Positions 2,553-64,000 of a stretch of 64,000 nt of DNA are shown piece after piece. The position numbers and the translations under genes are program-made. Position 1 is the stretch's first letter. Each line of letters opens with the position of its first letter. The notes beneath the pieces are model-generated. The model was not told where the DNA came from and searched no databases. It was given only the letters and a program-made list of their open reading frames with translations. Source of the DNA: Escallonia rubra (Eukaryota > Streptophyta > Magnoliopsida > Escalloniales > Escalloniaceae); contig JAVXUO010003193.1 in NCBI GenBank assembly GCA_033065855.1, positions 62,001 to 126,000 of the forward strand, given 5' to 3'.

Positions 2553-2706
2553 TGTTGTAACATCACGGGAAAAATGTAGTAACATTTTAGAACTTTGTTC
2601 ATATTGATGTGTTTTTGCACCTCCGTTCATATATATATATAGTGCCGATGATGATTTTTGCCAAATTATTGTTTTTAACATGTTAATGTCTTTGTAATTT
2701 ATCTAT

Positions 2707-4335: not shown

Positions 4336-4579
4336 TGAGCCCCTTCTCGTGCCCGTTCCTAGTTTCCCCCCTCCCCACCCCCTTTCCCCGCGCCCGGCTT
4401 GTACTCTTCTCTCCTCCCCTAACCGGCTGTATCAGGTTCCCAGCTTGTACATAATGAGTCTTTTTTATAATAAACATTTTTTATGAGTGATTATATATAT
4501 TTCTTTGTGTATTGATTATTGCGCGTTGTTGTTGAGAAATGAAAATTTTAAAGTCTGGGTAATAGAAAAATAAAAATAA

Positions 4580-18333: not shown

Positions 18334-18334
18334 C
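16052..18334 (-). pseudogene. LINE reverse transcriptase-RNase H C-terminal half, one in-frame stop
   Basis: The frame is open from 18334 to 16346, has TAG at 16343-16345, and continues in the same frame to the stop at 16052. The order is about 85 codons of non-RT sequence, then the end of RT (EAETVLRCLKKFETWSGQ, then NRDKSRIFFSKN), the L1 thumb/connection region (RRFWWGHNEAKRHFYT), zf-RVT (residues about 480-560; CPLCNSEQETLIHIFFYCPL), then RNase H with INFDAAV (Asp), EHAEALAAL (Glu), FEGDAQ (Asp) and RHVNRLAH (His). The single stop falls between the RNase H Glu and the second Asp. The YADD catalytic motif of RT is absent, so it cannot be autonomous. The first 85 codons include MVPGTPVG, of unknown origin. 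Confidence 0.88.
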
Positions 18335-26239: not shown

Positions 26240-26242
26240 TTT

Positions 26243-26260
26243 TGGCGACTCCGCTGGGGA
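26243..26260 (+). other. Primer binding site of the TR-GAG element
   Basis: TGGCGACTCCGCTGGGGA lies 3-6 nt after the LTR end. Its complement ends in CCA and resembles the 3' end of a plant tRNA-Arg, the primer reported for Ogre-type elements. The tRNA identity is from memory and needs checking against a tRNA set. Confidence 0.65.
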
Positions 26261-26306
26261 GGTGAGCATCGTACTGCAGTCTGTCTATCTTCCGCACTCA
26301 GTCTCC

Positions 26307-28046
26307 ATGCCTAGACAACGAAAAGCTACGAAGGCTGCCAGCCAAGGCCTTATCCACACCGTACAAGAGGAGGATCACCTCGGCGAACAAGAAGGGACTA
26401 GTGCCATGCGTCTCCAAGACCAGCCACAAACTACCGCACCTGACATACAAGTTGCAGTCAATGCGGCCATCCAGCAGTTTTCGCCTACTATAGCCACTCT
26501 TATGACAGCCATGGTGGAAATGCAAAAATCAATCCAAGTCTTGACTTCACAATCACCGATTTCCCAAAGCCTTAGAGCTCCGCACCCTGTGCCCATTACT
26601 CACCCCGTGTTATCCCAAGATCCAGGTTTGGCCCCTCCTGCTCATATCCAACCTTCAAGGCCTGGGCTAGTTTTGGACACTGCTCAGGTCCCAGTGTCGC
26701 GACCACCGCTGCCTTGGTCCTTCGGGCCCTCGACAGTAGGACTCGCGGCACCTCAGCCCCCGGCGCCACGCATTGCCCTTGCTCGAAGCACTTCGGAGAC
26801 TCACGAATCAATTGAGATGGAGCCTAACCCGAACATAACTAGCCGAAACCTAAACACAAGTCATTCTCCCGGCTTACTCCAGTCGACCTTTCCTGACGAC
26901 CGGCCTCCAGCAGCTGACACTACCCATATGCAAAACATGCCCCAACAAGTTGCTCACCATCACCAACCCCTCTCTACCATCGTCATCCCCTCAATGCCTC
27001 AGGTTGTACCGTCTGGGGGCTCTGGTGCTCGGATCATCACGACATGGCACAAGCCCTCACATGCGTCGTACGTCACCAAGCATGACTTAGACGCTCTCCT
27101 TCACCGTCTCAAGCAGTCATCCTCACCCCACTCCGCCTCTAAGCTGTCAGGTCATGCTCCCTACTTTGGCAGCCTCGCTACTAAGCCCTACCCTGTCAAG
27201 TACAAGCAACCATCCTTCACATTGTTCAACGGCAAAGAAGGCAACGCCCGCGAGCATCTCACCCGTTTTGCTGGCTCCCTCGAGCACTACGGGGAAGACG
27301 ACACTTTGAAGCTTCGGGAATTTCACAAGTCCCTGACTGGCCTCGCCTACTCTTGGTATCATCAGATTCCTGACAGTACTATCCACTCATGGTCCGACAT
27401 GGTCCAGCTCTTCCTTGACAAGTTTCACTATGAGACGGAACGTGTGACCATCGTTGACATTGCCGGGATCCGCCAGAACCCCGGCGAAGACCTCAACACC
27501 TATGTTACGCGATTTCATCACAAGTGCTTGGAGTGCACTGACTTCAGCAAGGATGAAACCCTTGTGCCCATTTGCATCAAGAACATGAAGGACACCTACA
27601 GGGTCTACCTTGAAAACCTCCAGCTTCGGTCTTGGAGACATCTCAAGGAAGCTGCACGACGCACCTATGACTCGGTCGGTCCGTCAAAGACTCCAAAGCC
27701 CCCACCTCATATTGCCTTGGCCACGACGATGGAAGCAGCTAGTAACGACGACAACAACCGCAAGCGTCAGTCCCAAGGAAGGGACGGGCGTCCTGACAAG
27801 AGAGGGCAGCCGATGCCTGCCCCGGAATACCCGTATGACTTGAAGACTGTTAGAGATCTCCTCGAGACATGGATCGACGACAATGCCATAACCCTGCCCA
27901 ATGTCGACAGTGAACCTACCCCGGAAGACTTAGCCCATCACAACTACTGCCCCTATCATCGAAAGGTCGGTCATGGCCTCAAGTGGTGCAGGGGCCTCAA
28001 GTTTGTCTTCGCCGACAAGATTGCGTCCGGAGAGCTCAAACTCTAA
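26307..28046 (+). CDS. Retrotransposon gag protein (TR-GAG), intact
   Basis: This is 579 codons from the first ATG after the PBS (MPRQRKATKAA); the upstream open frame has no ATG. The structural protein would form virus-like particles in the cytoplasm. The Retrotrans_gag core (PF03732) is at about residues 310-420 (GKEGNAREHLTRFAGSL, LTGLAYSWYHQIPDSTIHSW, LFLDKFHYE). The first 290 residues are Pro/Gln/His-rich. A zinc-knuckle-like end, CPYHRKVGHGLKWC, is near residue 555: Cys-x2-His variant as in Tat-type gag. TAA follows at 28046 and no pro or pol is fused to it. An open frame of this length in a dead-end element suggests recent activity or selection for gag function. Confidence 0.86.
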   Translation: MPRQRKATKAASQGLIHTVQEEDHLGEQEGTSAMRLQDQPQTTAPDIQVAVNAAIQQFSPTIATLMTAMVEMQKSIQVLTSQSPISQSLRAPHPVPITHPVLSQDPGLAPPAHIQPSRPGLVLDTAQVPVSRPPLPWSFGPSTVGLAAPQPPAPRIALARSTSETHESIEMEPNPNITSRNLNTSHSPGLLQSTFPDDRPPAADTTHMQNMPQQVAHHHQPLSTIVIPSMPQVVPSGGSGARIITTWHKPSHASYVTKHDLDALLHRLKQSSSPHSASKLSGHAPYFGSLATKPYPVKYKQPSFTLFNGKEGNAREHLTRFAGSLEHYGEDDTLKLREFHKSLTGLAYSWYHQIPDSTIHSWSDMVQLFLDKFHYETERVTIVDIAGIRQNPGEDLNTYVTRFHHKCLECTDFSKDETLVPICIKNMKDTYRVYLENLQLRSWRHLKEAARRTYDSVGPSKTPKPPPHIALATTMEAASNDDNNRKRQSQGRDGRPDKRGQPMPAPEYPYDLKTVRDLLETWIDDNAITLPNVDSEPTPEDLAHHNYCPYHRKVGHGLKWCRGLKFVFADKIASGELKL

Positions 28047-29039
28047 GTACGGGACATAAGGGCATGCCTTAGTGCATTTTCCACACTTGTAATTTTTTCG
28101 TTCATTTTGCAAGTTTCCATACCCATGTATCAAGGCATGTTGCCTATCCTTCGTTATCAATGAAGTTACATTTTCCAGACTTAGAAAATTTTCAAGCTAC
28201 ATTGATCTTGCACAAGTCTATTGATATCACCCTTCTTGCCATCACCCACTCCCTTGGGGGCTTCACCCCTTCCCAATCCCTTCGGTCTCACATTGCAATG
28301 ACTTGGTACGTGGTGCACGGGGTGGCTCGAGCCGCGCTACTACGGTCGCATCATCATCCTGCATTCACTTTTCTAACACTTAGAAAAAATTTCATTTTTT
28401 TCACAACCGGTCATCGATGATCATCCTCAGTGGTCTCCCTCGGCATCCTTGTCTCAGCCCAACACTTAGAAAAATTTTCATTTTTTTTTTCGCAACCGGT
28501 GATCAATGACCACCCTCAACGGCCTCCCCTTAGCATCCTTGCCCGAACTCAAAAAAAAAAAATTTCAACACTTAGAAAAATTTTCAAGTTTTTCATCTCC
28601 CCACATTCATGCCCTCATCACTCTCCCTCTCACACTTTCCTGTCCTCCCTCACCATCCAACACCCCATCACCCTTTCCCCACTTCATAAACAACTTCTCT
28701 CTTTCTCATGGAAAAGCTTCATTCTTTTCCCATTCCATTTTCTCTCACTCTCATCTTGCACATTATGAAAATATTCTTGGGGGGCTCCCTCCTTAGGGCT
28801 GCCCAAAAAAAAATAAAATTTATTATTATTTTATTATTTTGTTTGAATTTGAATTTAAAAAAATCTGACCAAACCCTACCCGCGAACCCGTATTGACCCG
28901 CGCGCCCCCGACCCGCGCCCATTCCCTCTCTGTGGTGTACCCGACCCAACCCGGATCTAGACCCGTTTACCCGAAAAACCCTAATTTTTCTAAACCCTAA
29001 TTTTTTCCCCATCTCTTTCTCTTCTTCTTCTTCGCGCCG

Positions 29040-29745
29040 CCCAGCCTTGCGCCGCCGCCTTCTCCTTCGGCCTCGGCCTCCACGGCCCATCGCCTCCGCC
29101 GACCCTCGGCCTCGCCCCCACCTCCCTCTCTCCTCCCTTCTCTCCCCCGCCCCTCCTCCCCCCCTCGGCCTCGCGCCGCGGCACCCCGCCGCCGCCGCCG
29201 CCCCCCTTCTTCCCCCTTCTTCTTTCTTCCTTTCCCCTTCCTTCCTCCCTCCTCCCCTGCCCCTTCGGCCTCGGCCACCCCTCCCTCTACCACCTCGGCC
29301 TCGGCCCTCCCTCTCCCTTCCCCTTTCCTCTCTCCTCCCTTCCTCCTCCTTCCCCCCTTCCCTCTCCCTCTCCTCTCTTCCCCCCGCCCCTCGCCCACCC
29401 GCGGCAGGCCGCCACCGCCTCCCTTCCCCCTTCCCTCTTCCTCCCCCATCCTCCTTCGACCTCGGCCATCCTTCCCCCTCCCCCTTCGGCCTCGGCCCTC
29501 CCCCTCCCTTCCCCTTTCCTCTCTCTCCCCTCCTTCCTCCCCCCACCCGCGCCCCCTCGGCCTCGACCACCGCGGCACCCCACCGCCGCCGCCATCCCCC
29601 TTCTTCACCTTCTTCCCACTTCCCCTCTCCCCTTCTCCCCAAGCTCGGCCTCGGCCCACCTCCACCTTCCCCCTTCTTCCCCTTCCTCTCTTCCCTCCTC
29701 CCACCTCTTCCCCCCATCCCCATCCCTTCCCCTTCGGCCCCCATC
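29040..29745. repeat. 700-bp polypyrimidine tract in TR-GAG internal region
   Basis: The plus strand is almost entirely C and T (CTTCCCCCTCCCC-type runs), interspersed with CGGCCTCGGCC blocks every 50-100 bp. Long ORFs on both strands (for example Arg/Gly/Glu-rich on the minus strand) are low-complexity artefacts. Such strand asymmetry could serve as an extended polypurine-like region or adopt triplex structure; this is inference. Confidence 0.8.
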
Positions 29746-29952
29746 AAGGCCATTCATTTCGGCCTTCCCCATACCAAGTTCATCAACCTTCCACCACCTC
29801 TCCATCTCTCATTTTCCTTCATACCAACAACTTCTTCACTTCAGTCACAACACCCAAGTCCACCCCGCCACCTTCGAACTTCTCACCTTCACATCATGGC
29901 TGACATCCAAGGCTGGCAACTTAAAAAATTTGTCGCCCGTCGTCCAGACGTC

Positions 29953-30204
29953 GGACGTCAACTCCGCGACGCCCGTCGCCTGTCGTCCGGACGTCAACTC
30001 CGCGACCCCCGTCGCCCGTCGTCCGGACGTCAACTCCGCGACGCCCGTCGCCCGTCGTCCGGACGTCATCTCCGCGACCCCCGTCGCCCGTCGTCCGGAC
30101 GTCAACTCCGCGACCCCCGTCGCCCGTCGTCCGGACGTCAACTCCGCGACCCCCGTCGCCCGTCGTCCGGACGTCAACTCCGCGACCCCTGTCGCCCGTC
30201 GTGG
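29953..30204. repeat. 36-bp tandem repeat, 7 copies, in TR-GAG
   Basis: GGACGTCAACTCCGCGAC recurs at 29953, 29989, 30025, 30061, 30097, 30133 and 30169 with exactly 36-bp period and few mismatches. Because 36 is a multiple of 3, open frames cross it on both strands; I do not regard these as genes. Diverged relatives are in the LTR at 24470-24640. Confidence 0.88.
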
Positions 30205-30570
30205 ACTGCCCCTGCATCGCGATGCTCGATCGCGCACATCGCGCCCCTACACATTTCATGCTTTTTTACACTTAGAAATTTTTTTGCAAATTTGATCACA
30301 TCCCATGTGACGATGTCCCTCGACATCAACACCCTTGGTAGGTGGTGCGCGAGATAGCTCGAACCACTTACTCCTATTCATTATCTAATGCTCGCCGTCA
30401 GCGCCCGCGCGCCGTCTTCACGACGCTTGTCGCCCATCGCCCGGGTGACGTCTCCGCGACACTCGTCGTCTGTCGCCCGGGCGCCGTTTACATGCTCGCG
30501 CCCCTGCGCCCTATTATCGTGCCTTGGTCTCAACCCCCAAGCATTCCAAGCTTTCGTAGGTGGTGCACGA

Positions 30571-30586
30571 GGTGGCTCGAGCCACC
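30571..30586. other. Perfect 16-bp palindrome GGTGGCTCGAGCCACC
   Basis: It is self-complementary and set in a longer GTAGGTGG...CCACCTAC inverted repeat (30556-30589). Two diverged relatives in the same element are near 28323 (GGTGGCTCGAGCCGCG) and 30343 (decayed). Its position shortly before the 3' LTR suggests a structural RNA motif of the element. Confidence 0.5.
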
Positions 30587-30713
30587 TACTCTTTATCATC
30601 ATGCAGACGACCTCAACAACACTCCAGCCAAACAACATAAAATCTTCCTAAGTGTTTATGCGTGCGGTGCCCGCTCGGGTTACCCTTCCGCGCACACCAC
30701 ACGCAGGGGCTTA

Positions 30714-31337
30714 TGTTCCCAACCTATTCTGGTCGTACCCAAAGGCCCACTACGGTCCCATTTTGCATGACACGTCCGCACAAGCAACAGACATTTTCAA
30801 CGCTCACAACCGGTCAAAGCGTGCACGCTCAAGTCACGTGCACTTCTTACTTCTTCTACGCGACTTCGTTGCCAAGAAACTCATCATCGTGCGACGCCGC
30901 ATCACGCTTCGACCGTCGCACTTCGCACGTTGTCCGCTGATGCGCCATGGCACTTGCCCAAGGAGGTTGGCCTTGGCCTCCCCCTTGGGGTCGGCCTCGG
31001 CCTTGGCCTTCCCCTTGGGGTCGGCCTCGGCCTTGGCCTTCCCCTTGGGGTCGGCCTCGGCCTCCCCCTTGTGGTCGGCCTCGGCCTTCCCTTGGGGTTG
31101 GCCTTGGCCTGCCCCCAAGGGTTGGCCTTTGGCCACTTCTCTTCAAGAGGCCTTGCATCCTTCGCGACGCCCTTCGCCCGTCATCCGGATGTCAACCTCG
31201 CGACGTCCGTCGTGCATCACCTTACGGACGTTCGTACATCAACCTCGCGACGTCCGGCATAAGGACTCACCCGCATGGATAGGCGACTCCTCCGGGACAC
31301 TAGCTCTGCCAGGGAGCTCTTCAACTCCCCTTCCGCC
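30714..31337 (+). repeat. 3' LTR of TR-GAG, internally deleted and truncated
   Basis: It starts TGTTCCCAACC and matches the 5' LTR to about 31255. It then jumps about 0.9 kb (from the 45-bp repeats to CATAAGGACTCACCCGC) and ends at CCTTCCGCCA (31337), fused directly to TNP2 coding sequence of CACTA F. The purine-rich CAGGGGCTTA just before 30714 is the best polypurine-tract candidate, though a weak one. Confidence 0.78.
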
Positions 31338-47707: not shown

Positions 47708-49039
47708 CACTACAAGAAAAATGACTATTAGTGACGGAATTTAGAGATGGAATCAATTCCATCGCTAAAAGCCACCTAATCTGACGGAATTAGGTTCCGT
47801 CACTATTATGACTCCAAAAATAGTGGAGGGAAAAAATGCGCGGGAAAGAAAAATTTGCGACGGAATTTAGCGACGGAGTTTAGTGACGGCGTTATTTCCG
47901 TCGCTAAATGTGTTATTCTAATTTTTAATTACAAAATTGCTTTAATTAATTATTGAAAAATAGCAGAGTATATATAATAAAGCAAGAAAAATAGCAGAAC
48001 ATAAAACAAAACAAAACAAAAGAGAAGAGAAAAAAGGGTTCGGCACAAAAGAACACAACAATGGTGGCAACCCTTCGCACAAAAGAACATAGTAGTGGCG
48101 GCAACCTTTCGCGCCACCATCCCTCCCACCCTGTCGCGATTGTTGAGGTAACGTTCACCCTCTGAAGGTTTGTGCGAAGCCCCTTGCTCCATCTTCTTTC
48201 AATAATGGCTTTGATTTTTGTATGAAACCTTAATCCCTTGATTGACGTAATAATTAAATTAGGGTTCTTGTTCATTTGGGTCTTCAATTTGCCGATCTTC
48301 CTCTGAATCTCATCTTCTTGCCAAGTAATTCTTCCTCTCACGTCTCAATCGCTTATCCTCAAGTCTATGTGGATGTTCTTGGATCACAACTTACTCAGGA
48401 GTCAGTGCAAGCAACTACTCCACAAATTTTCATATTAGCAATATCTGTTGTACTTTTGTGTTCTGTGTTCTGAGGGAGAGGTGGCATTATTAATTTGGAG
48501 GAGAAGGAACAAAAACTAAACAGAAAAGGCGATTCTTGGCGCTTATGAGAGGAACTTGTCTGGGAATACTCAACCATGGAGACATATAAGTATGGTAGAA
48601 ACTAAAACAAATGCTAGTGGAGGAAAACTGTCAAGAATATGTGTTGTTTAGGTGATTAGATTGTTTAGTCCCTTCTGGATGCATCTGAAAGTAGTATAGT
48701 CGATCTGAATTATGTATTCAGATTGATTAATGGTGTTACATACATTTGTGTGGTTGCGAGTGACTAAGTCTAAGACTTAACTATGTGTTTGCATGCTGTA
48801 TTCAGCTTAGGAACCATCTATCTACACTGTGCTTTGTGGCATGAGCACACACCTGCACATGTAGACACTTGTAAGTCTCCTGTTTTCCAACTATTTGGGA
48901 TATATTGCATAATTACACTTCATGTAAATCCAGCAGATGCATAAACACTTAGTAATATTATTTTTATTTTGAGCATATGCATGTAAATCCAGCAGCCGCT
49001 GAGGCAACTACATTATCACTAGTATGTTTAATGTGGCAG

Positions 49040-49211
49040 GGGTACTTTGACTTTGAGTCTCCTGAGCAGGAAACAACGGGAAGAGTTGTTTTTTTCCATC
49101 ACATTTTTACTAACTATACAAAGTGGATGGAAGGAGCGAGGAAATTTGCAATTAGCAAGGTAGGAGAAGATGCACATCCAGAATTATGGAAGAATCACCC
49201 CCCCCCCCCCC
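49040..49211 (+). pseudogene. PF03004-type transposase gene of D, exon part before the C insertion
   Basis: It follows a splice acceptor GTGGCAG (49033-49039) and reads YFDFESPEQETTGRVVFFHH and TKWMEGARKFAISKVGED, the start of the Transposase_24 core (compare FTFDSPEQQALGQQAFFAY in A). It ends in a run of 14 C (49198-49211, Pro codons), at which element C begins. Confidence 0.82.
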
Positions 49212-49833
49212 CACTACAAGGAAAAAGGCTTTTAGCGACGGGGAAATCTGTCGCTAAAAGCCTAAAATCCGTCGCTAAAATATTTAGCGACGGATTTACC
49301 GTCGCTAAAAGTCCCTCGTATAAAAGCTCGTTACTAATAGTTTGGCGACAGAATTTTCAAATCCGTCGTTAATATTTAAGTTTTTGCGACGGATTTAATT
49401 ATTAATTAGCGACGGAATATCCGTCTCTAATTATATTTTAATTTCTTTTTTTAACATTAGCGATGGAATAAATGTTTTAGCGACGGATTATTCCGTCGCT
49501 AAATAAGACATTTAGCAACGGAATAATCCATCGCTAAAAACTTATAGTAATTAAAAATATTTAGCGACGGATATAATCCCTCGCCAAAAGTAAAAAAAAA
49601 ATTAATTTTTTTTTATTTTTCTAATGCCCAAACCTGTAATAAAAAAATCAATCCTCAACAACAATACGCAATAATCAATAAACAAAGAAATATATATAAT
49701 TAATCATAAAAAGGACTCATTATGTACAAGCTGGGAACCGGATACAGCCGGTTAGGGGAGGGGAGAAGAGTACAAGCCAGGCGCGGGGGCCGGGGGGGGG
49801 GGGAAGCTGGGACCGGGCACGAGAAGGAGCTCA

Positions 49834-51467
49834 TCAGGGGTTGCCGAGTCCCGGATCTGGATCCTGCTGACTCGGGGCCGGCTCGACATGTCCAGCTGCG
49901 GTACCCTGCTGATCCTGCTCCCTGATCATCCTCAACACCACTGTAGCAATGCGCGCGATCTCATCGTCGTCCAACGGATGCCGAGGAGCCGATGTCTGTG
50001 GAGGGGCATCGGGGGGTGAGGACGCTCCTCTCACGGCACGAGCAGTCCGACTAGGCAGGTCGCGTATGCGGCCTTTCGGCCGATTGATGACCTCCAGCGT
50101 ATCCAGCCATCGCTTCAACGCCCCAGTACTTGCAGCCGTACTAGTGGACGTTGATGGCTGTCTGGACTGCTCCTCGGACCCCCTAAGCTGTTCATAGGAG
50201 GCCTGCGAAAACAGTGATATAAAGATATGTTAGGGCATTAATTAACGCAACAGATATTGAGGATAGAAAGAAAAAAAATTAACATCTAAAACAAATTGAC
50301 TCACATCGATACGCCGGGCAATATCTGAAATATAGTCGCCCGCCCGGTGCGCCTCGTCCTTGTCCTTCTTCCGCATGTGCATCTGACTATACGTCAGAGC
50401 TACGACCTCATCCTCCTCCAGATCCGGGTGCTCGACCGCATTCTTGTGTCGGACGATGTCGTGTGGTACCGACCCCCCTGTGTGCGTCGGATCTTTGTTC
50501 TGTCTATTCTCCGCCCCGCTCTTACTTTTGGCGTCCCAACCTGGATCCGCAGCCCACCGATCTATCATCGCCGTCCATACAGTCGGAGATATCCAATGTG
50601 GGGGATATCTCGTCATCTCAATCATCAGGGTACCCTCGAGCAGCATCTTCTTAGCCCGGTCCCTTGCGTCGTGGAGCCATCGGCGGTAATGCTTGCCGAT
50701 GTAAGCAAAGAAGGCATGCTGCCCCAGTGCATGCTGCTCAGGCGAGTCAAACGTGAACCCCTCCTGTAAGGCATTCAATAACAAAAATTAATTACAGAAA
50801 ACAAACTCTAATTAAACAAATACTATCACTGAAAAAATACTTCACCGTACTAGCCACTCCTCCCATAGGGACTCCCTCGCAGCGACATCCCAATCCTTCC
50901 AGTACAGGCGTGGCTCGAAGAATCGGCCCTTCACAAGAACGCCGATCTTCATCCTCGCCTGATTCTCTAGGATCCTGCCAAAGAAGTAAATAAATTAATT
51001 AATACAGTTCAAATATAAATTAACACCCCAAAATTTTAAATATAAGGCATGCATGATGTGATTTTTTTTTACTTACAGGCCCTCCGGGGTGAGCGTAACT
51101 CTCTGTTTACGCTGGGGGTCGATGCGTACCCTGCGTGTCGGACCATGGCCTCGTCGAGATCCTACAAAACACAGACATTAATACAATTCAAATATACTTT
51201 AAATATAAGGCCAGCGAAAATGTACTAAACACCATTATCAACTATACTTGTGGTAGAACCCACGGAAGAAGGAGAATCAACGCGCGTGTGGGATGAATCT
51301 GCTTCGGGCTGGGGCGACGGCGACGGCCTGGGCTGGGGCTGGGGCCCCATCTACTGTCCGCGATCACTCTGTGCCTCGTCATCGGTGGGCAATGACGAGG
51401 TAGGTCCCACCGGGGAGGAAGCAGCTCGGCGTCCAACCCGGCCACGAATAGCCCGTATCCTATCCAT
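49834..51467 (-). pseudogene. TNP1-like PF03004 gene of C, nearly intact
   Basis: Predicted exons on the minus strand are roughly 51467-51253, 51164-51078, 50976-50850, 50765-50306 and 50203-49834. The core exon has FTFDSPEQHALGQHAFFAY, ISPTVWTAMIDRWAADPGW and KDPTHTGGSVPHD. The last exon has RPKGRIRDLP and ends DQQDPDPGLGNP. The only disabling lesion I see is TAG at 51353-51351 in the Pro/Gln-rich first exon (GQ-stop-MGPQ; A has Lys). It starts at MDRIRAIRGR because the earlier ATG of A is ACG here. The gap from TNP2 is 173 bp. Confidence 0.87.
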
Positions 51468-51640
51468 ATCTGACTTCGTATAGATAAATTACAAATACAT
51501 GAACACATTAAAAACAATAATTTGGTAGAAATCATCATCGACACTATATATATATGAACGGAGGTGCAAAAACACATCAATATGAACCAAGTTCTAAAAT
51601 GTTACTACATTTTTTTCCCGGTTTGTTACAACATTACAAC

Positions 51641-54600
51641 TCAATCATTTTCAGTTTGAGAATCATCATCATCTTCATCTTCATCACTTTCTTCATCGTC
51701 CTCTTCTTCGTGGGACTCATCGTCCTCTTCATCTTCTAATTCATCCTCTTCATCAGTAGACTCGGTCACATCATCTCCAACACTTTTCGCGTCATCATCT
51801 ACGACTTCTTCTCCTTCATGAAGTGTTGTTGGAAGAGGAAGATCGTCCTCCTCGTTGTTGACCTCAACAGGGAACAAGACAGGTGGTTGGTCGGCTTGAA
51901 AGGAGTCTAGCTCACTGTCATAGGAAATTTCTTGGACTTAATAATTGTATACCAATGAGATTTGGGATTGGCGACGTCCTCCACGTAAAAGACTTGTACA
52001 GCTTGACTAGCAAACACAAAGGGCTCGTCTGATGCAAGTCTTGACTTGACATTGACATCTACAATCCCTTGAGAGCTAACACGGATTCCTCTACTGCATG
52101 TGACATCGAACCACGTACACTTGAACATTACCAGGCGGTTTTGGGAACCCAGATATGTTAGCTCAACAATCTCATCTAGCTCTCCGTAAAAGTCCATGCA
52201 ATTCTCGGCATAACAGTCGCCGTTGACCAATACTCCACTGTTTTGGGTTTGTTTTGTTCGGTCATCATCTTTTACGTTAAACCTAAACCCGTTGATGATA
52301 TAGCCTCCGTAATAGGATCTTTGTTTGTTAGGGCCTTCGGCTAGTAATTTCAAGCAGGAGGCCACTGGTCTATCCATTGACTGAACCTATTGTAGATGAC
52401 GGTAAACATTAAGGATAAATCAGTATACTAATTTGGCCACAGAACTGTATATAACACATAATATCAATGATAACAATCTTACACGCCTTTTGAACCACTG
52501 TACAAATTGTGATTTCCAATGAGATTCAAGTCCAGCGGGATCAGTGATTAAAGATTTCGCATCGAACTCACTGCAAACCAATATAGTTGACTCGCTTAAC
52601 ACACACTTTCAATTATGTACAGCAATGTAAGTGAATTAAGACTTTAACTTACTCAACGAATGCCGAAACTTCATCGCAATTTAGAAGGGCATATATTGTT
52701 GCAGCACTGTATTCTTCATTCGTTAGCCATCGAGTATACGTTCGGCCGAACGGACTACCTGACTGCTTGAATATTGACAATTGCCCTTCCAAATTTGTGC
52801 TTGATCCGGGGTCATTTCGGCCTAGTTGATTTAACCTTGTACCAACATCAGGCCCTAAATATTGACTACAAAAGTTTACAAGTTCTTCCATTACGTAAGC
52901 CTCCACAATTGAGTCCTCAACCCGAGCCTTATTGCGGACTTTTTTTCTTTAAATGGAACATGAACCTAGAAGTTTAGCGAATCGAGTTAGGTGGAATATC
53001 AATGATAACAGGTGTCGCATTAAGTGTAAACGAACAACTGTAACAATTTAAAGATTACCTCTCGAAGGGATACATCCACCGATATTGCACGGGTCCACCC
53101 ATCTTAGCTTCATATGCCAAGTGAACAGGCAGATGCTCCATTGAATCAAAGAACGAAGGTGGGAAGATTTTCTCCAGCTTGCAAATAGTCACCACAATGT
53201 TCTTCTCAAGCACTTTCATGTTACTCACCCGGATTGTAGAAGAACATATATCTCGAAAGAAATGAGATAATTCGGTCAAAGTCTCGCAAATAACCCGTGG
53301 CAACAGTCCCCGGAAGGCAATAGGAATGAATCTCTCCATGAATACGTGGCAGTCGTGACTCTTCATCCCTTGAAACTTGCATTCCGATACATTGCAACAA
53401 CGAGATATGTTGGACGCAAACCCATCCGGAAGCTTCAAATTCTTAACCCACTGACAGACCTTCTCCACTTGTTTCTTGTCTAGACAGTAAGGTGCTTTCG
53501 GAAGTATCGTCCTCCCACTGACTGTCCGAGGATGCAATTCACGGCGTACACCCAACTGTTGTAGATCCCTTCTCGCTTTAAGGTGATCTTTCGATTTGCT
53601 CTTGACATTCATCACTGTGTTGAACATATTATCAAAAACGTTCTTCTCAATATGCATCACATCCATGTTGTTTCAGATAACGAGAGTCCTCCAGTAGGCT
53701 AACTCCCAAAAGATACAAAATTTTCTCCAGTTGTGCTATTTCCCGTACCCTGGAATCTTCTGATCTGGCACACCCTTGCCGTGTGGTATGTCAGTATCAA
53801 GTGCCTCCAGGTGTGAGAGCACTTCTTCACCAGATGGGTAGTCCAGTGTGACAACCTCACGCTCAATTGTCCCGTCAAATTTATCCTTCTGCCTACGAAA
53901 CTGATGGCCCGGTGGCAAAAGCTTACGGTGACATCCGAACCACGAGGGCTTTCTGCCGTGCTTTAACGTATGACCGGGGTTCACGCCCATACAAGCAGGG
54001 CATGCTAGCTTCCCATGTGTGCTCCAGCCACACGTCATTCCCAATGCGGGGAAATCATGTATAGTCCACATCAAAGCAGCCCTCATCTGAAAATTCTGTT
54101 TACGGGATGCATCATATGTTTCGACTCCATGATTCCATAACTGTTTTAACTCATCAATCAACGGCCTTAAATACACATATATGTCTTAGCCGGGACTTTT
54201 CGGCCCCAGAGTAAGCAATGACAAGAACATGTACGGCTTCTTCATGCACATGCCTGGTGGAAGGTTATACGGGACAATAATAACAGGCCAACAGGAGTAA
54301 GGCGTGGTAGACTGACCGAAAGGGTTGAACCCATCGATTGCCAGACCAAGTCTAACATTCCGAACTTCCTGAGCAAAGACTGGATGCCTGTGGTCAAACT
54401 CCTTCCACGCCTCTCCATCAGCTGGGTGTGTCAGCACATCGGTATCGTTGCTACGAGTCTCAAGGTGAGCCCTCATATGTTCAGCCGTATTAGAGGAGTA
54501 GTACATTCTCTGAAGCCGTGGTGTGACCGGGAAATATCGCAATATCTTTCATGCAATGTTTTTCTTCTTCCCCTTGTCCGGTTTGTACCTCGAATAATCA

Positions 54601-55303
54601 CATACTGGAACCGTGGCAAATCCTTATTCTCTTTCCAGAATAATACACAATCATTATTGCACTCATCTATCCGCTCATAGCTCAACCCAAGTTTCCTCAT
54701 CATCTTCTTCGAGTCATAGTACGACGGCGGTAGCTTTTCACTTTTGGGCAGAATTTCTTTGACTAAGGTAACAAACTCGTTAAAACTTTTCTCGCTCAGC
54801 CCGTGGTCTGATTTTAACTGTAATAACCTACTAACCGCAGACAGCCATGTGTGCTTCAGAGCTCCATCCCACAGCGGCTCTTCCGCAGCTCTCAACAACT
54901 CATAAAACTGATGAGCCCCCTCATTCGGCGATTGTGGACTGTCGTCACCACCGTCGTTACCCTAGTCAACATTAGCATGCCGAGCATCCATAATCATATC
55001 TCGGTAATCATACCGTGCCTCCTCCCTAACTTCAGTTTGACTAGCCGGGTTGGACGACAATACTATCGTTTCCCCGTGTTGCGTCCACCTTGTGTATCCA
55101 CCCATAAAATCTTACCGACGAAGATGCCATTTTACTTCAATTCTTTTTCTCCAATGCAACAACTCACATCTACCGCACGGACACCTTATCTTATCAAAGT
55201 CAACATGTGCAGGATGCGCGTAAGCGAAGTCAAGAAATTCGTCAACGCGATCCTCAAAATCGTCAGCATTCTTCCTTTTCATCCAACTTCGATCGACCGA
55301 CAT
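51641..55303 (-). pseudogene. TNP2-type CACTA transposase of C, full length but with stops
   Basis: All regions are present in order: transposase-associated domain (55303-55070, CPCGRC), catalytic TNP2 core (54540-53740; RLGLAIDGFNPFGQ, SCWPVIIVPYNLPPGMCM, RAALMWTIHDFPALG and CGWSTHGKLACPACM, the TNP2 hallmark), the MDVMHIEKNVFDN segment and DUF4218 (53666-53055), then smaller exons (52970-52660, 52570-52480), DUF4216 (52377-51907) and an acidic tail. Stops lie at 55114-55112, 54964-54962, near 54555, 54188-54186, 53738-53736 and about 53675. One frameshift is near 54615. It supplies the best view of the family's protein but cannot make transposase. Confidence 0.9.
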
Positions 55304-55989
55304 GACGACTGAATTATCATACTGTATACCACTTTCAATTTTGACCAATCATTAGGCAGGGTCGATGTAAATATGAATGCATGAATGTGACAACATGTCT
55401 ATGTATTTCCCCTCCATTCTCTAATAGGTAGTGGTCCTATCCCATTCAGAAAAGCACATGTTTATAAAACAGTGAATAACTCATGCTTAGTCCTCTGTCT
55501 GCGAAAAATTTGGCAGCACCTCCTCGCATTTCTCCAAGTACACGACATCGATTAGGTGTTTTAACATTCATCTAACCTTGCCTTGCAAGGTTTGACGAAT
55601 GTTAGAACACCAGATCTGTATGCACCCGGAGAAACACATGAGAACGTGTACCAAATATCCACGACATAGAACACAGAGCATGAGTTGAAACACTGATTTA
55701 TAAACACGTAGCTTTTCCAAATTGTCCAAACTGGACATCCAAAGGCTCATTACAAATCATTACTTTGTAATGACTACCTTTGAACGGGAACTAAGGGTTT
55801 TTATGCAAGCATGCATTCAGAAATTGATAATATATGCAAGAATCTTTCCGAAATATCCAAATTGCAGAAAGATCGTTGCATATGTTACCAATTCCACTTT
55901 AAATAGAATTCGTTGGCAACGAGTTGAACCATCTCGTTGCCAATGGACTTCGCAAAACAACAACGAATATAAAGAATGCAGGGTTTATA

Positions 55990-56650
55990 AGCAACGAGTA
56001 ATTGAATGCTAATCTGGGCTAATTAGTGTTAATGAGGGCTACCTTGGGCTAATTATAGCTAATTAGGGTTGATTAGGAGTAATTAGGGTTAATCTGAGCT
56101 AATAGCCGGGTTTTATTGTGCGGAGTCGTGTTGATTAGTCCTAATTAGGCTTAATTATTGTGCGGAGTCGTGTTGATTAGTCCTAATTAGGCTAATTAGT
56201 GTTAATGAGGATTACCTTGGACTAATTATAGCTAATTAGGGTTGGTTAGGACTAATTAGGGTTATTTTGAGCTAATTAGGGTTTAATTGTGCGTAGTAGT
56301 GTTGATTAGTCCTAATTAGGACTAATTAGGCTTAATTGGGTTATTAGGCTTAATTACGACTACTTAGGTGCGTAATCAGAGTTTAGTTAAGTTTTAGGGT
56401 TTAGGGTTTAATTAATCTAATCACGGGTCTACAAGATGCTTTGTCATTAGGGCTAATTAGGGCTTAATTTGGACTGATTGGTGTTAATTAGGATCAATTT
56501 GGGGTAATTACAACTAATTTAATTTTCATTGGGTTCTTAGGGTTAAGTAAAACTAATTAGGTTGTTAGAGCTAATTAGGGTTAATTGGGTTCATTAGGGT
56601 TAATCGGGACTAATTAGGGCTAATTATATCCAGTGCTGGAGCCACGATGA
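55990..56650. repeat. AT-rich telo-box-like array in CACTA C
   Basis: Reverse complement of the arrays in A (190-1110) and B (20900-21560), with TTAGGGTTTAATT-type units. A roughly 70-bp unit with GCGGAGTCGTGTTGATTAG is duplicated at 56118-56190. A second isolated piece lies at about 58905-58995, so part of the region was duplicated within C. Confidence 0.75.
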
Positions 56651-56819
56651 GATTCTAAGGGGTGCTAAAAATGTCGCGTTAACCTAATTAACCTAAATTC
56701 AACAACCAACCATTCAACTAATTCACAGATATCTCAATCCAATTGGGTCCCATCCTCCGTCAACAATTTCAATTCTCAAATTCTCAATGCACAGTCAACA
56801 ATCTCAATTCCCAATACCT

Positions 56820-57830
56820 CATAAAAGGTGTCAGTATGGTGTCTGACACCTCTGGACACGTCGGAAGTCATTGATTTATTTTTTAAATGTCAGACACCGT
56901 GTATGTCACCCCATGAAGAGGTGTCCACAAGTATAAAGCCAAAATGTGACATTTTTCGGTGTCGGTGTCGATCGGACGGGATGTCCGTGACCTACCGACA
57001 CCTCGACACCTCATCGACACATTCGAAAATGTGTCGGACACCTCCGGACACGTGTTCGACACCTCCGGACACGTGTCCGACACCTACCGACACGTGTCCG
57101 ACACCTCTGGACACGTCCGAAGTCATTGATTTATTTTTTAAATGCCGGACCCCGTGTCCGTCACCCCTTGAAGAGGTGTCCGTCACCCCTTGAAGAGGTG
57201 TCCACAAGTATAAAGCCAAAATGTGACATTTTTCGGTGTCGGTGTCGATCGGACGGGATGTCCGTGACCTACTGACACCTCGACACCTCATCGACACATT
57301 CGAAAATGTGTCGGACACCTCCGGACACGTGTTCGACACCTCCGAACACGTGTCCGACACCTACCGACACGTGTCCGACACCTACCGACACGTGTCCGAC
57401 ACCTCTGGACACGTCCGAAGTCATTGATTTATTTTTTAAATGCCGGACCTCGTGTCCGTCACCCCTTGAAGAGGTGTCTGTCACCCCTTGAAGAGGTGTC
57501 CACAAGTATAAAGCCAAAATGTGACATTTTTCGGTGTCGGTGTCGATCGGACGGGATGTCCGTGACCTACCGACACCTCATCGACACATCCGGAAACGTG
57601 TCAGACACCTCTGGACACGTGTCCGACACCTACCGACACGTGTCCGACACTTTCAGACACGCTCAAAGACAATGATTTATTTTTTAAATGCCAGACGCCG
57701 TGTCTATCACCCCTTGAAGAGGTGTCCATAAGTATAAAGCCAAAATGTGACATTTTTCGGTGTCAATGTCGATCGGACGGGATGTCCATGACCTACCGAC
57801 ACCTTGACACCTCAATTCTCAATTCTGAAT
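56820..57830. repeat. Array of GGACACGTGTCC palindromes in about 250-300-bp units
   Basis: Four units share TTGATTTATTTTTTAAATG (near 56871, 57126, 57424 and 57672) followed by CCGTGTCCGTCACCCCTTGA, AGAGGTGTCCACAAGTATAA and GACGGGATGTCCGTGACC. Between them are 27-bp-spaced repeats CGGACACGTGTCCGACACCT, each centred on the G-box CACGTG. The related region in A and B is shorter (1-110; 20650-20820). It is upstream of the transposase genes, so it is a candidate regulatory or transposase-binding array. Apparent ORFs rich in His/Thr/Asp here are repeat products. Confidence 0.85.
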
Positions 57831-59164
57831 CCAATTGAGTCCCATCCTCCGTCAACAATCTCATTTCTCAATTCTCAAATGCTCAATGCAATAAAAATTA
57901 ATAAAAATCACACATTCAATCCAATTGGGTCCCATCCTCCGTTAAAAATCTCAATTCTCAAATGCTCAATGCAAAATTAACAATCTAAAATCATCAATTA
58001 ACAACCTAAAATTAAGGTGCACAACCGTCAAGTGCATAAATAATTAGAGTGCAAATTGTGCTATCGAGGGGGGGGGGGGGTTTGCGAATATTCAGGAGGG
58101 AAGAATCGAATTCAAAACCTTGTGAAAATTAGATATCTGATAATACCAAAATCATGATAGCCCTTTCAGTTGTTTTCTTCTTTGATAGCCCTTTCAGTTG
58201 TTTCCTTTCACTACTAAATCAACTCTTGTTGTTAGTTTAAAAAAGGCTCTGCCTAACTTAAAACACGCCAAGGATTGAAAACATTAGCTCATCCACATTC
58301 AAGACAAGTAGACACAATCGTATTGCTGCAGTTTGAACCCCATTATTGTAAGCTTAAATGGTTGATGCAATCTTTCTACAAAATTCAGCACTAGAACTGG
58401 CATCCTAAAATAGCTGTCACTAGCTGGTTTATATGTCATCTGTACATCTTAAGAGTGACTGCTACTGATAACCTAGCAAGTGGCAACTACGTGAGATAGA
58501 CTCGATCAGTGCTACACATACTACCACATAGTTTTCGCCATCATACCAAAAGTAATCAAGAATTTCATTCGATGCCTCTGCACTAGTTAACTGATCATGT
58601 TTACTTTACTCAGGCTGGCAGACTTGGGAGCTTTAATCTGCACCAGCATTAACAGTGTCACAACCACAAGTTTGCCCAAGAAATTTTGAAAATAAATAAA
58701 TAAAATGACTACCACAAAAATCTCAACTACACACATCATCATTTCACCACCCAAATAGCCACCTATACTGTTGAACGTCACTCACATATTACAAATAACA
58801 CCCCAAAAATCTCAAACCAATCACTGAATGAAACCTAACCCTAGTGCAAATCCAATCACTGGATCTCAATGAAGACAAAAAAAAAAAACCACCAAAGTTC
58901 AAAGATTTGCTAATTAGGGCTAACTTGGGGTAATTACAGCTAATTTGATATTCATTGGGTTCTTAGGGTTAATTAAAACTAATTAGGCTCGTTAGACACG
59001 TGTTCGACACATACCGACACGTGTCCGACGCCCACCGACATGCACCTCCGGACACATCGGCATATGTTGATTTATTTTGTAAATTTCGGACACCATTTAC
59101 AAATTCGAGCAATCAAGAGGGTGAGCTGCAAAAGTTACCTCAACCTGATGCCATGAGTATGAAA

Positions 59165-59265
59165 ATCGGAAGAGCCTCTGGACAAAATGGGACAAGGCTG
59201 CGTACATCTAACCCTTTCCAAACCCTAAAGTGGCAGAAGCCTCAAGCACCGGGGCACCCTTACTA
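59165..59265 (+). mobile_element. Au-SINE-like fragment
   Basis: GGGACAAGGCTGCGTACATC followed by CCCTTTCCAAACCCTAAAG and CACCGGGGCACCCTTACT resembles the 3' body of plant Au-type SINEs (consensus style: AAGGCTGCGTACA...CCCTTCCCCAGACCC...GCACTGGG..CCCTT), judged from memory. The tRNA-like 5' half was not identified. Confidence 0.45.
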
Positions 59266-60606
59266 ATTTTACTATGACAGAAGGATACATCGGTGATGTG
59301 CTCTTACAGCCGGAGTTATAACCAACCCTGTAAATAACAACCTGGATCCTGGCTGCAGCAGCTGTACAGATCTGGATTAGCTAGGACACCTCTTAAACCG
59401 GTCATCTTCTAGTTCCCTTGGCACAACCTAGTCTGGTTCAAAGGCATTTTTCTGGTATATGGACAGACTGAAAGTTCGATGGGCTAAAACAACGTTAACA
59501 TGCTAGACACCATGCAACACTAAATATTGAAATATCCGCTTTTCGTTTGTGCCTAGTCTAAAGAGATTTAGGGAAACACTTGTCATGTGTTCAATTCAGA
59601 AGACTCCAGTGAGCTGAACTCAAGAGGTCTCTTGGTCTTTCAGCGTCAACACTCAATGTTGCAGAAACCTTGTCTTTCGTTTATAAACTTTTCCCGAGTG
59701 CCGTTAATTGCGTATACATACAAAAGGAACAAAGTCTTAGGAGACGAAGAATACTTGCCGCAGTACTTCTGCAACAGATGTTAAGGGTACTAAAAGATTC
59801 AGAATTCCAAAAATTAAGAATGCGGGAGGGTATTAAACTTTCATCTTCTAAACAAGCCAATAGTCAGAGGTATAAACAAGCCGCTCAGCTTCTGATATAC
59901 TATCGTTTGGATTCAGCTTGAGCTCTAATACAATTCAAGGACGCCTAAAAATTGGTTTGACTTGGCTTGAACTCTGAAATGAGCCCATTCGAGCTAGAGA
60001 TTAAGCTTCATTCTGATGAACTTCTCTCTTCATTTCAACATAACTATGTTTGTGGCAAATTCTACTGCAAGGACCCTGACTTTTTGAGCAAGATGAATGA
60101 TGATTGTAAGTTTTTTGATTATTCATAGTATATGACTAGTAAGTGGGTTGAGATCGGAAACACTAATGCACCATGAGCTGACCTTGAGCTAAGCTCAACA
60201 AACGGGAGGAACTCGCAAACTTACTACAGCATGCAAGTGGTTTAGGCCCTAGTGGCTTATCTTTCTTATGAGCTCAAGTTGAGTGACCAATAACAGATTA
60301 GAGTACGTATTGGGCACTCAAGCAGAGTAGACTTGCTAGTTCTGGAATACTGCTAATAGTATTACGGATCATATTCTATCCTTTTGATGTTGTTAGTTTT
60401 CTGTAGGATTTTTGCCTGCTTTGCTTCTTCGTGCTTTTTTTTTCCTTCCTGTTCAGAGTGGTATCCAGACTATAACATTTACATCGTTGATGTTGGTGTC
60501 AAAATCCCAAATTCGGTACACATCGAGGCGGATCTGACATAGATGTTATGAAATGGAACCTATACCTCTCATGGTAGCTACTTGTTTTATTCTCTCACTC
60601 AACCAT

Positions 60607-60704
60607 GTAAAACCAATCGTTTAAAACCAATGTAAAACCAATCGTTTAAAACCAATGTAAAACCAATCGTTTAAAACCAATGTAAAACCAATCGTTTAAA
60701 CAAG
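60607..60704. repeat. 25-bp tandem repeat, 4 copies
   Basis: GTAAAACCAATCGTTTAAAA recurs at 60607, 60632, 60657 and 60682 with 25-bp period, the last unit slightly changed. It is upstream of the leader of CACTA C. There are no spacers, so it is not a CRISPR array. Confidence 0.9.
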
Positions 60705-61020
60705 CATACACATTGTTGCATTGCATAGATACAATTACAAGTAAATTCGTGAAAAGGGTGCAAATGGATATGAAAAACTGGTGCAAAACCTACCTAAAAA
60801 TCAAGAGACTGCAAGAGAGATCGGCGGCAGTGGCGGCGGCGGTTCTTCGGTTTTGAAGATCGACGGCAGTGGCGGCAACAGTGGCGGTGGCAGGCTATAT
60901 TCCGTCTGGGGGTGGGTTGCCGGGGATGGCGACGGAGGTGGCGTCGAAGGAAATATCGCCGATGAGAGTTAATAGAGAGAGAGAGAGAAACGGGAGAAAG
61001 AAAAGCGTAAGGGGATCTGT

Positions 61021-61376
61021 GTTTTTTAGACCTTTACCGATGGAACACACCCGTCGGTAAACATCCGTCTGGAAAACTCTACTTTCACCGACGGGTATTT
61101 TTACCGACGGCATTATTCCGTCGCCTCTATGTTTTTGAAAATCATCGAAAATTAAAAAAAACCTATAAAATATTTATCGACTGTACTTTTCGTCGGTAAA
61201 AAACCGACGATGCAAAATCCGTCGATAAAAAGATTTAACGACGGAGTGTTCTGTCATTAAATATTTTTACCGACGGATTTTCATCGACGGTTTTTTTCGT
61301 CGCTGAAATGGCTTTTAGTGACGAAATTTCTTCCGTCGCTAAAAGTCCATCATTAAATCCTTCTTTTCTTGTAGTG
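61021..61376. repeat. 5' subterminal repeats and terminus of CACTA C
   Basis: The repeat here is partly ACCGACGG/CCGTCGGT rather than GCGACGG, changing to GCGACGAAA towards the end, then TCTTTTCTTGTAGTG. The opposite end (49212-49620) has only TTAGCGACGGA types, so the two ends of one element carry different subterminal units. Confidence 0.82.
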
Positions 61377-63198
61377 CCCCCCCCCCCCCCCCCCCCCCCG
61401 CCCTCCCCGAATGGATCCGTAATGATATTTGGCAGGAGATGGTGGATGTATGGGCAACCACGAAATGGCAGGAAAAATCCAGATGTGCAAAGACAAATCG
61501 ATCTGCAAATGATGAGCCATCTCACACAGGTGGTTTCGTGTCGCGTGCTGTTATTGGAGTTGAATTGAAGGAAAAGATGCTAGATATTAGCGCCGCAAAG
61601 CTGAACCTAGAGGTGTACGAATTAACACATAAACTTAAACATGATTCTAATGGTCAGCCATTGGAAGAGCAAGACCGCCCACATGTCTCAAAGAAGGCAA
61701 AGGCTATTCGCGTAAGTTTGTTTTTGCAGCTGATTTTTCATCTATCTTGTTTGATGAATCTCTAACTCGACTTGCATTTTGCATGAGTTACAGGATGCAT
61801 ATGCTGTGAGGTTTGATGAAATTAGTTCTCAGGAACCCAACTCTTCCTTGCTAGATTCTGATGCAGCAGAATTGTGGCGACAAACGCCTGGGGTTCGCGA
61901 CAAGAAATGACGTATACGTGGTACTCATGAAACCGCACGAGAAGCCAGGGCATCGATGCGTATTCCATTAGACCAGCCTCCGAAAATTGGAAAGACGAAA
62001 TTGCTAAGATTGTGCTTCTTTAGGTGCAGAAGATGAAAGAGATTGAAATTGCTAAGCTTACAGAGATTGAGGTGGAAAAACGGATGAAAGAGAAGGACCT
62101 GCAACATGTATCAAACCTCATGCTTCATTCATGTTTAAGGCCATCTGGTAGAGTATTGTTTGGATTAGTTTTGCAAGGAAATGACAGGAATATCATTAGA
62201 GGTTGGTATAAGTTGAATAACAGTCTTACAACTAACTCAATATTAAGTATCAGTTCAGCAATGTTTCTGTGAAAAGTTGAACAATAATGACACAATCAAG
62301 AAAATGGTGTCTACATGGTTTGACTAGCCGATGCTTAAAGCATGAAAACCAAGCTTTGAGTCCAAGTTTGGTATAGGCAGTACAGTTGGAGTTTGAGGTG
62401 CTGGTACCGTGCCTTAGTGGCTTGACCCCAAGGAGTTTTTAAACTTTTGCTGGTACTGTGTCTTAGTGGTTTGAGCTGCTGGCACTATGTCTTAGTGGTT
62501 TGACCCCTAGGACAAGACTTGAAATTTCTACTTGATACATATTTTAGGTGCTAACAGGCCCGTGATTATGGCAGCAAGGGTGATCATTGTGAAGTAATTT
62601 CACATGTTGATTTCATGGTTGCAGTGGCTGGGGCCTAAAATGATTTCATGGTCATTGTGAATATCCTTTTCTTGGTGGTGTTTGGGGTGTAGTTCTGCCT
62701 ATTCAAGATAGATAAAAGTACAGTTTGCTGGTTATTCCCTATTTGCAGCTTGTTTTTTGCAGCAAATAGGGAATAACCCAGCAAATAACAAGCTTGTTAT
62801 TTGTTGGGTTCCCTGTTTGCTGCCAATAACAAGCTTGTTATTCCCTATTTGCTGCCCATTCTTTAGTAGCTTGTTATTTGCTGGGTTATTCCCTATTTGC
62901 AGTTTAGGTACTCATGCAAAAAAATGTTGTTAGCTTTCAAGCATGCTTAACCATTTTGTATAGAACTTGCCATTGTTAATTAATCTAGATGGTCCCAACT
63001 ATGTGTAGCTTCTGATGGCTAATTTGGTTTAGGGAGTAGCTATCACTATGCTGTAGTTACCATGTTGGATTCATGGGTAGGCTTGGTTATGCAAGTACAT
63101 TGGTACATCCTTTAATTGCTTTGTTACAGGCCGAATTTACCGCGACTGATGTTACTGAGGATGGCAATGATGAAACATTCGACGAGCTTGGTGGATGA
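61377..63198 (+). pseudogene. PF03004-type transposase gene of D, part after the C insertion
   Basis: After a 22-C run the core continues: IWQEMVDVWATTKWQEKS, then NRSANDEPSHTGGFVS (the PSHTGGS family motif; last Ser is Phe here), then a helical segment to CGC/GTAAGT (61713). The next exon starts after TTACAG near 61793 (DAYAVRFDEISSQEPNSSLL) and meets TGA in KK-stop-RIRGT (near 61909), where KKGRI is expected. A Lys/Glu-rich coiled segment follows (about 62024-62107). A last exon fits 63130-63198 (EFTATDVTEDGNDETFDELG, TGA). It is disrupted both by C and by the stop. Confidence 0.78.
62727..62842. repeat. Hairpin and palindromes in D intron
   Basis: GTTATTCCCTATTTGC (62731-62746) pairs perfectly with 62762-62777 (16-bp stem, 15-nt loop), extended by GCTG/CAGC with one bulge. 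Two perfect palindromes follow: ATAACAAGCTTGTTAT (62785-62800) and AATAACAAGCTTGTTATT (62825-62842). All are built from the same TTATTCCCTATTTGC and AACAAGC words, suggesting a decayed local inverted duplication. Confidence 0.7.
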
Positions 63199-63308
63199 TT
63201 GCCTTATGTGACCAGATTTTATGTTACATTTGTTGGGATATTTGTTCATTTTGGTAACCAAGCAACTGTTTGATTTAGATACATTAACTCAATTGTTAAC
63301 TTTTGGAT

Positions 63309-63695
63309 GTATTTGGATATAGGATTTGAACTGGGGATTTGACTTTGGTAGGGTATTTATAAATCACTTGGACAAAATATCTTGTTTGGATAGTTCAAAA
63401 GAGAATTTTTGAAATTTCGAAGTGATTTGAACTGTGGATTTGGGGTCACCAAATCCACAGTTCAAATCACTAGTTTGAACTAGTTATTTGTCAAATCCAC
63501 TCCAATCAGTAATTTACAAACCCACAATAACTAGTTCCCTATTTTTTAGGAATCTTACCTCCCACCTTTTTAACAACTTTTTGCTTCCTTTCTTCCAAAC
63601 AAGATATTTCAAAATGATAGAATTTGTAAATCAGGAGATTTCGAAATGAAGGCATTTAGAAATACCCAGTATTTCAAAATCCCATATCCAAACAC
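63309..63695. mobile_element. MITE, 387 bp, with internal 23-bp hairpin
   Basis: Ends GTATTTGGATATAGGATTT and AAATCCCATATCCAAACAC are inverted repeats (17 of 19). Inside, AGTGATTTGAACTGTGGATT (63421 onward) pairs over 23 bp with 63449-63471 around the 5-nt loop GGTCA. There is no ORF. It lies between the last exon of D and its right subterminal repeats. Confidence 0.7.
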
Positions 63696-64000
63696 ACCTA
63701 TTCAACAAATGCTGAATATTTGTTATCTTCAGTTCATTATCGGATGTTTGATTATTATTGTCACAAGTTGTTGCATTAATTAAGAAAAGTATAATCTATT
63801 ATGCATATTTAATAATTTTTAGCTCCTAAGTATGATTTTTGAGACGGAATTAGCGACGGAAAATTTTCCCTTTTTTTGCGACGGAAAGTTTTTTAGCTCC
63901 AATATATGGTTTTTGCGACGGAATTAGCGACGGAAAAAATTATTTGCGAGATATGATTTTGTGACGGAAAATTTGTCTTCTACAAAATTTGGCGATGGAA

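Follow-up and report, generated by a model that had tools for sequence, protein, structure and literature searches.

A GACAC/G-box array inside a CACTA transposon of Escallonia rubra probably stems from the ends of a hAT-like element

The window analyzed here is a 64,000-nucleotide stretch of the Escallonia rubra genome (positions 62001-126000 of contig C1131), and the genome searches were made in the host's own assembly, which comprises 566 Mb in 3,222 contigs. The window carries a CACTA transposon, element D (Table 1), whose termini, CACTACAAG from 49212 and CTTGTAGTG ending at 61376, are CACTA terminal inverted repeats. D is flanked by a C on both sides but, as it lies within a poly-C run, its 3-bp target duplication is uninformative. 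The domains of a tnp2-type transposase are present even though the gene is interrupted, within Transposase_21, by an in-frame stop at 54186-54188. No RNA family reached the gathering threshold in D, and a Transposase_21 piece has no relative in the viral_contigs collection. D is perhaps nested in another CACTA element having its left end at 47708 and covering the regions 47708-49211 and 61377-64000; the Transposase_24 match of this putative outer element comes after D, in the frame 61343-61765.

Two related CACTA elements, A and B, are found in the same window. Within 1142-4977, element A matches D on either side of a gap of about 2.95 kb, and therefore lacks the catalytic part of tnp2. This part is likewise missing from element B. 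All three elements carry in their 5' region an array of TAATTA, a homeodomain-type core. B is bordered by CAC at either end, and a closely similar site that lacks the element is found at 11990-12070, within a paralogous stretch (10.9-13.6 kb vs. 18.3-23.8 kb of the window); hence, B probably moved after the local duplication. Elsewhere in the window, a 663-aa open frame with a zf-RVT domain (16343-18334, minus strand) is presumably LINE-like, and the GC-rich region 24000-31200 contains several tandem arrays (36-, 47-, and 169-bp units) around a Retrotrans_gag frame (26214-28046).

Table 1. Features of the window related to the GACAC/G-box array and to the CACTA elements that contain it.
Feature	Position	Strand	Description
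CACTA element A	cut by window start, ends at 4977		one GACAC block; parts ordered as in D
GACAC block in element A	1-110
TAATTA arrays in the 5' regions of the three related CACTA elements	385-1021, 21040-21445, 56008-56625		10-bp steps prevail
CACTA element B	19436-22165		internally deleted; one GACAC block; parts ordered as in D
hAT-like block in element B	20634-20817		single; one perfect GGACACGTGTCC; 11 half-sites within 20640-20830
CACTA element D	49212-61376	-	12,165 bp; CACTACAAG... ends; CGACGG subterminal repeats at both ends; target is a poly-C run
Transposase_24 (tnpA-like) match, weak, and adjoining open frame	49837-50787	-	below Pfam cut-off
tnp2-type transposase gene of D	51907-55348	-	Transpos_assoc, Transposase_21, DUF4218, DUF4216
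TAATTA array of D	56008-56625		mostly 10-bp steps; between GACAC array and tnp2; common to A and B
GACAC/GTGTC array	56826-57815		9 CACGTG; three long units and a partial unit at each end
Long units of the array	56872-57126, 57127-57424, 57425-57672		255, 298, and 248 bp; 90-97% alike
Second, small GACAC cluster of D	58995-59093		two CACGTG 21 bp apart; adjoins a TAATTA-array piece

A sequence-only reading of this region had described a dense array of G-box palindromes inside a CACTA element, upstream of the transposase genes. This location is borne out by the ends of D, by the tnp2 domains and by the genes being on the minus strand. The array lies 3.6 kb in from the 5' end of D; the first in-frame ATG (55303) of the Transpos_assoc frame is 1.5 kb downstream of it, beyond the TAATTA array. 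The dense array is real, its limits had been placed accurately to about 15 bp, and the long units had rightly been put at 250-300 bp. The repetition of CACGTG is also confirmed, but the 12-bp palindrome GGACACGTGTCC is perfect at only two of the nine sites, the other seven having one mismatch, and the step is exactly 21 bp instead of 27 bp.

The basic unit of the array is not the 12-bp G-box palindrome but the 5-mer GACAC/GTGTC, present in 64 copies (36 and 28) over 990 bp. When the array itself was dinucleotide-shuffled 1,000 times, the mean count was 8.2 and the highest was 17. Within groups, successive GACAC sites are nearly always 10 or 11 bp apart, and the spectrum of each of the three groups peaks at 10.5 bp. 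CACGTG arises where two such half-sites meet head to head. The nine copies form groups of three, four, and two, always with the 21-bp step inside a group; 25 copies are found across the window, for which 8.8 are expected by chance. Tail-to-tail pairs (GTGTC-N-GACAC, 11 cases) are more numerous than the head-to-head GACACGTGTC (six cases). The core of the DRE (RCCGAC) is also frequent (10 vs. a shuffle mean of 2.2).

Two other properties of the array were considered and set aside. A coding role of its open frames was rejected, as the 21-bp unit leaves frames open on both strands. Folding scores are strong (z of -5.4 and -7.5 for the two strands of one unit, and -14.3 for one strand of the whole array). 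However, z falls between -6.3 and -7.5 in three unrelated arrays of the window, and the first 300 bases of the GACAC array score -6.8; as these fold about equally well, the hairpin score is not diagnostic and a hairpin RNA was rejected as a special property. Short array patterns have no exact match in viral_contigs or genome_contigs, and the array has no match in the plasmids collection.

The array is related to sequences dispersed in the host genome. The 19-mer GGACACGTGTCCGACACCT occurs at 514 exact places (none for the reversed control). Twenty-three distinct loci, taken from the first places listed, were examined, and 10 kb were read for matches to D. Nineteen of them also match D otherwise (TAATTA array, GGATGGGACCC repeats, gene or end parts). 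In such CACTA-type loci, the GACAC runs vary from about 10 half-sites, as in A and B, to 124 half-sites in 1.9 kb with 23 CACGTG (L007), so that copy number does vary between related loci. At the four remaining loci (L014, L018, L020, and L022), nothing within 10 kb matches D besides the GACAC block. Complete elements are present at three of these four loci; they measure 826, 770, and 782 bp, have the ends CTAGGWAGCAC..., and are flanked by perfect duplications of 8 bp (GAGAAACT, CCTTCTAG, and CTCTTTAA). Short copies with similar ends also lie inside TAATTA arrays (L012, L017, and L024).

The 17-bp terminal inverted repeat of this separate element, CTAGGWAGCACNGACAC, has 1,496 exact matches in the genome (none for the reversed control). 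Among the first 100 places listed, 21 facing pairs are separated by less than 6 kb, and flanks were fetched for 17 of them. Direct repeats of 8 bp, with no more than one mismatch, border 14 of the 17 pairs (nine exactly), against 6 of 272 mis-paired controls, and all six control matches stem from three copies sharing the target ATTAGCAC. These three, along with a fourth (GTGCTAAT), resemble copies internal to the TAATTA array; once the four are removed, the duplication is seen at 10 of 13 pairs (six exact) vs. 0 of 156 controls. Exact repeats of 9 or 10 bp were not found at any of the 17 pairs. Three of the pairs have no 8-bp duplication, one of which (C259) has a 7-bp repeat. Of four pairs outside this set, L018, L022, and L037 have a perfect duplication and C16 has two mismatches.

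The hAT target signature is nTnnnnAn. The duplications have T at position 2 in seven of 14 cases and A at position 7 in nine of 14, a preference that agrees weakly with it. The lengths between paired ends range from 114 bp to 5.4 kb; the three short copies (114, 131, and 141 bp) all retain GACAC sites and two retain the G-box. The 8-bp duplications and the 17-bp terminal inverted repeats point to a non-autonomous family of the hAT type. As no transposase gene with these ends was found at the places examined, this assignment depends on the 8-bp duplications together with the weak T2/A7 preference. A search of the host genome for the hAT domain gave 1,924 first-look candidates, of which 150 were scored. 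None of the 900-bp 3' flanks of 20 of these candidates has a GACAC cluster, and none has these ends together with one; three of the flanks have, at the same place, an 11-mer two mismatches off the end repeat, which was not counted. Inspection of one candidate place for an autonomous partner was negative. The 5.4-kb family member L037 (G000:C137:99400-105050; with a perfect GAGTGCTT duplication) holds a Helitron_like_N match under the curated cut-off (E 1.8e-5), and none of its four open frames of at least 90 aa matches a hAT domain. One stretch of L037, which has no Pfam match, is presumably glycosyltransferase-like.

The array aligns with the ends of this element. Over 136 bp, it shares 80% identity with the L022 copy at the left end (E 8e-29), and for the blocks of A and B the alignment begins at base 13, a little inward of the element end. 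Compared with the left end of L037, long units 1-3 score 81, 114, and 110, the best of 300 dinucleotide shuffles being 52, 51, and 49. For the 70-base right end of L042, the scores are 44, 45, and 44 (best of 300 shuffles 40, 36, and 38), and in units 2 and 3 this match directly follows the stretch matching left-end bases 95-187. The right-end support is weaker than that of the left end: when only the final 35 bases of L042 are used, two, three, and two of the 300 shuffles reach the score obtained in the three units, and the right ends of L037 and L022 do not score above shuffles against the array. The L042 right end is also recognized in L009 (score 40, best of 200 shuffles 31), where the left end begins at element base 11, so that the outer ten bases are missing. 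These outermost ten bases of the left end are likewise absent from the GACAC block in CACTA. In element B, the block is bordered directly on both sides by ATTGAGAT (ATCTCAAT on the opposite strand), a candidate target repeat; as ATCTCAAT is also native at that place in CACTA, its presence on the flanks is no proof of insertion.

The half-sites are conserved among dispersed copies. In 20 aligned copies chosen by their end sequence alone, half-site columns are 0.925 identical vs. 0.796 for the other columns (p 1.6e-5), a comparison biased in favor of conservation because it used half-sites taken from the consensus and an alignment partly anchored on the motifs, and because AT-rich columns align poorly. 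A better control is given by the variable bases beside the fixed GACACGTGTC: its ten bases are held in 17-19 of 18-19 copies, when the adjacent single bases are held in 10 of 19 and 8 of 19. CACGTG itself is present in 16 of 21 end-chosen copies and absent from five. A search for symmetric co-variation between the bases on the two sides of the palindrome gave no convincing result. Inside the CACTA elements, a comparison of the three units of D gives half-sites no significant advantage in conservation over other positions (P 0.13-1.0). None of the 50 half-site columns differs between A and B, and 2 of 110 block columns changed vs. 40 of 610 outside (P 0.02-0.05), a weak signal; a later A/B stretch is equally well conserved.

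We consider it likely that the array consists of sites from the subterminal regions of a hAT-like element, which became trapped in a CACTA transposon and were amplified there. A non-autonomous hAT-like transposon would have inserted long ago into the 5' region of a CACTA family and would then have lost its outermost left bases. In D, we infer that an internal deletion was followed by head-to-tail multiplication, giving three long units, each made up of a left end and a right end. The GACAC half-sites and the head-to-head GACACGTGTC would then be subterminal motifs of the hAT-like element. In the well-known Ac/Ds system, also of the hAT type, subterminal repeats bind the transposase. In the parent element, the GACAC sites most likely bind its transposase, putatively with one site per helical turn, and in CACTA they would be passengers, expanded by unequal exchange or slippage. 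The array does not seem to be of CACTA's own making. Its sequence recurs as the terminal region of a distinct hAT-like element having its own terminal inverted repeats and 8-bp duplications. Because the array looks like the tandem remains of such a transposon, it was probably not built as a CACTA promoter, even if it could still act on nearby transcription. Binding by an element's own protein, one of the possibilities raised from the sequence, comes closer than control by ABA or light, but the binder would most likely be the transposase of the hAT-like element. The array is real and striking, but its origin appears fairly ordinary.

Other origins and uses have to be weighed against this reading. 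It is unlikely that the array is a platform for a CACTA-encoded TNPA-like protein, which would coat the noncoding 5' region and prevent its silencing, in the way of the VANC and Spm TnpA sites. The array contains 19 copies of CCGACAC, which corresponds to the first seven bases of the En/Spm motif, but the 12-bp Spm motif itself is absent. Also in favor of such a platform, CpG is not depleted in the array (observed/expected 1.24 vs. 0.67-0.87 in three other parts of D). GACAC is nevertheless missing from the ends of D (first 500 and last 1,100 bases), where the repeats are CGACGG, and a different mobile family carries it as its end motif. Short motifs repeated in tandem in noncoding DNA beside genes, with a half-site number varying more than tenfold among related loci, are also reminiscent of VANC targets as described in the accessible portions of two studies (PMC5735166, PMC10398659). 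The proposal that bZIP or bHLH factors bound to the G-boxes of a host-controlled promoter or enhancer would couple CACTA transcription to ABA or light seems very improbable. In its favor, the array lies upstream of the Transpos_assoc frame and GACACGTGTC, which has ACGTGTC on both strands, fits the ABA-element consensus (ACGTGKC is found 19 times on the two strands of the array vs. a shuffle mean of 1.0). In addition, the same 10-mer is reported, in the available part of one article, among motifs enriched in the promoters of drought-induced Arabidopsis genes (PMC4417316). However, the G-box is one of several pairings of a commoner half-site, and the ends of the hAT-like element already explain the sequence. 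Moreover, a promoter would drive nothing useful in these three copies, given the stop inside the tnp2 gene of D and the absence of the catalytic part from A and B.

A plain minisatellite born inside CACTA, with no special origin, is the most doubtful of these explanations. The neighboring TAATTA array indicates that short tandem expansions do occur here, the 10.5-bp phase could follow simply from the 21-bp unit, and the folding of the array is about matched by that of three other arrays of the window. Yet, homology to a separate element having end repeats and target duplications, together with the conservation of half-sites among its dispersed copies, largely refutes a minisatellite as the origin; for the last step, the expansion itself, a minisatellite-type process is possible. 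Trapped hAT-like sites may also have acquired second uses, and a CACTA-encoded binder (as for VANC or TnpA) and host bZIP factors are possible in this respect; a part in host regulation through the G-boxes, or in protecting CACTA from silencing, is at this stage possible but unsupported. It is quite improbable that the CACTA family took over the hAT-like site array as its 5' control region and amplified it, so that a hAT-like transposase, or host bZIP factors via GACACGTGTC, would govern CACTA transcription or silencing. If this were true, the hAT-like family would also scatter hundreds of ready-made ABA-type G-boxes genome-wide.

The trapped hAT-like element can be compared with several known systems. 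Like non-autonomous (MITE-like) hAT elements, it has 8-bp duplications with weak T2/A7, short terminal inverted repeats, many small end-only copies and repeated short motifs near the ends; unlike them, it is found here inside a CACTA transposon, multiplied head to tail, and no transposase partner was found for it among the candidates examined. The VANC targets of Arabidopsis VANDAL, as far as the consulted portions of the articles describe them, are likewise tandem short motifs in noncoding DNA with fast changes in copy number, but there VANDAL's own protein binds, whereas here the motif, a putative binding site, belongs to the ends of another element (PMC5735166, PMC10398659). In Jozin of Chenopodium, a tnp2-type CACTA is also associated with a tandem array; according to the parts available, the Chenopodium arrays either sit close to the 3' end or originate from a fragment of tnp2, whereas the present array is 5' and hAT-like (PMC8978399, PMC7320549). 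The En/Spm TNPA sites, subterminal repeats whose general role is covered in PMC2613891, similarly consist of a short motif in direct and inverted orientation. CCGACAC resembles the En/Spm motif, but the GACAC array is not subterminal in D, which carries CGACGG repeats at its ends. Such an array in CACTA is not described among the literature matches listed, mostly outside subscription journals, nor in the accessible portions of PMC8195511, PMC4938662, and PMC4158355. As a literature string, GGACACGTGTCC appears in two of the papers covered, both unrelated by title.

These results correct the promoter reading, as another transposon's ends can take the form of a dense, palindromic, and helically phased array located 5' of a gene. 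They also give the motif grammar of a high-copy hAT-like family, with GACAC once per turn and GACACGTGTC fixed between variable bases, which makes binding by the transposase directly testable. Finally, since the core is also a good match to a G-box and to the ABA element, this family would be a natural test case for transposons that spread regulatory sites.
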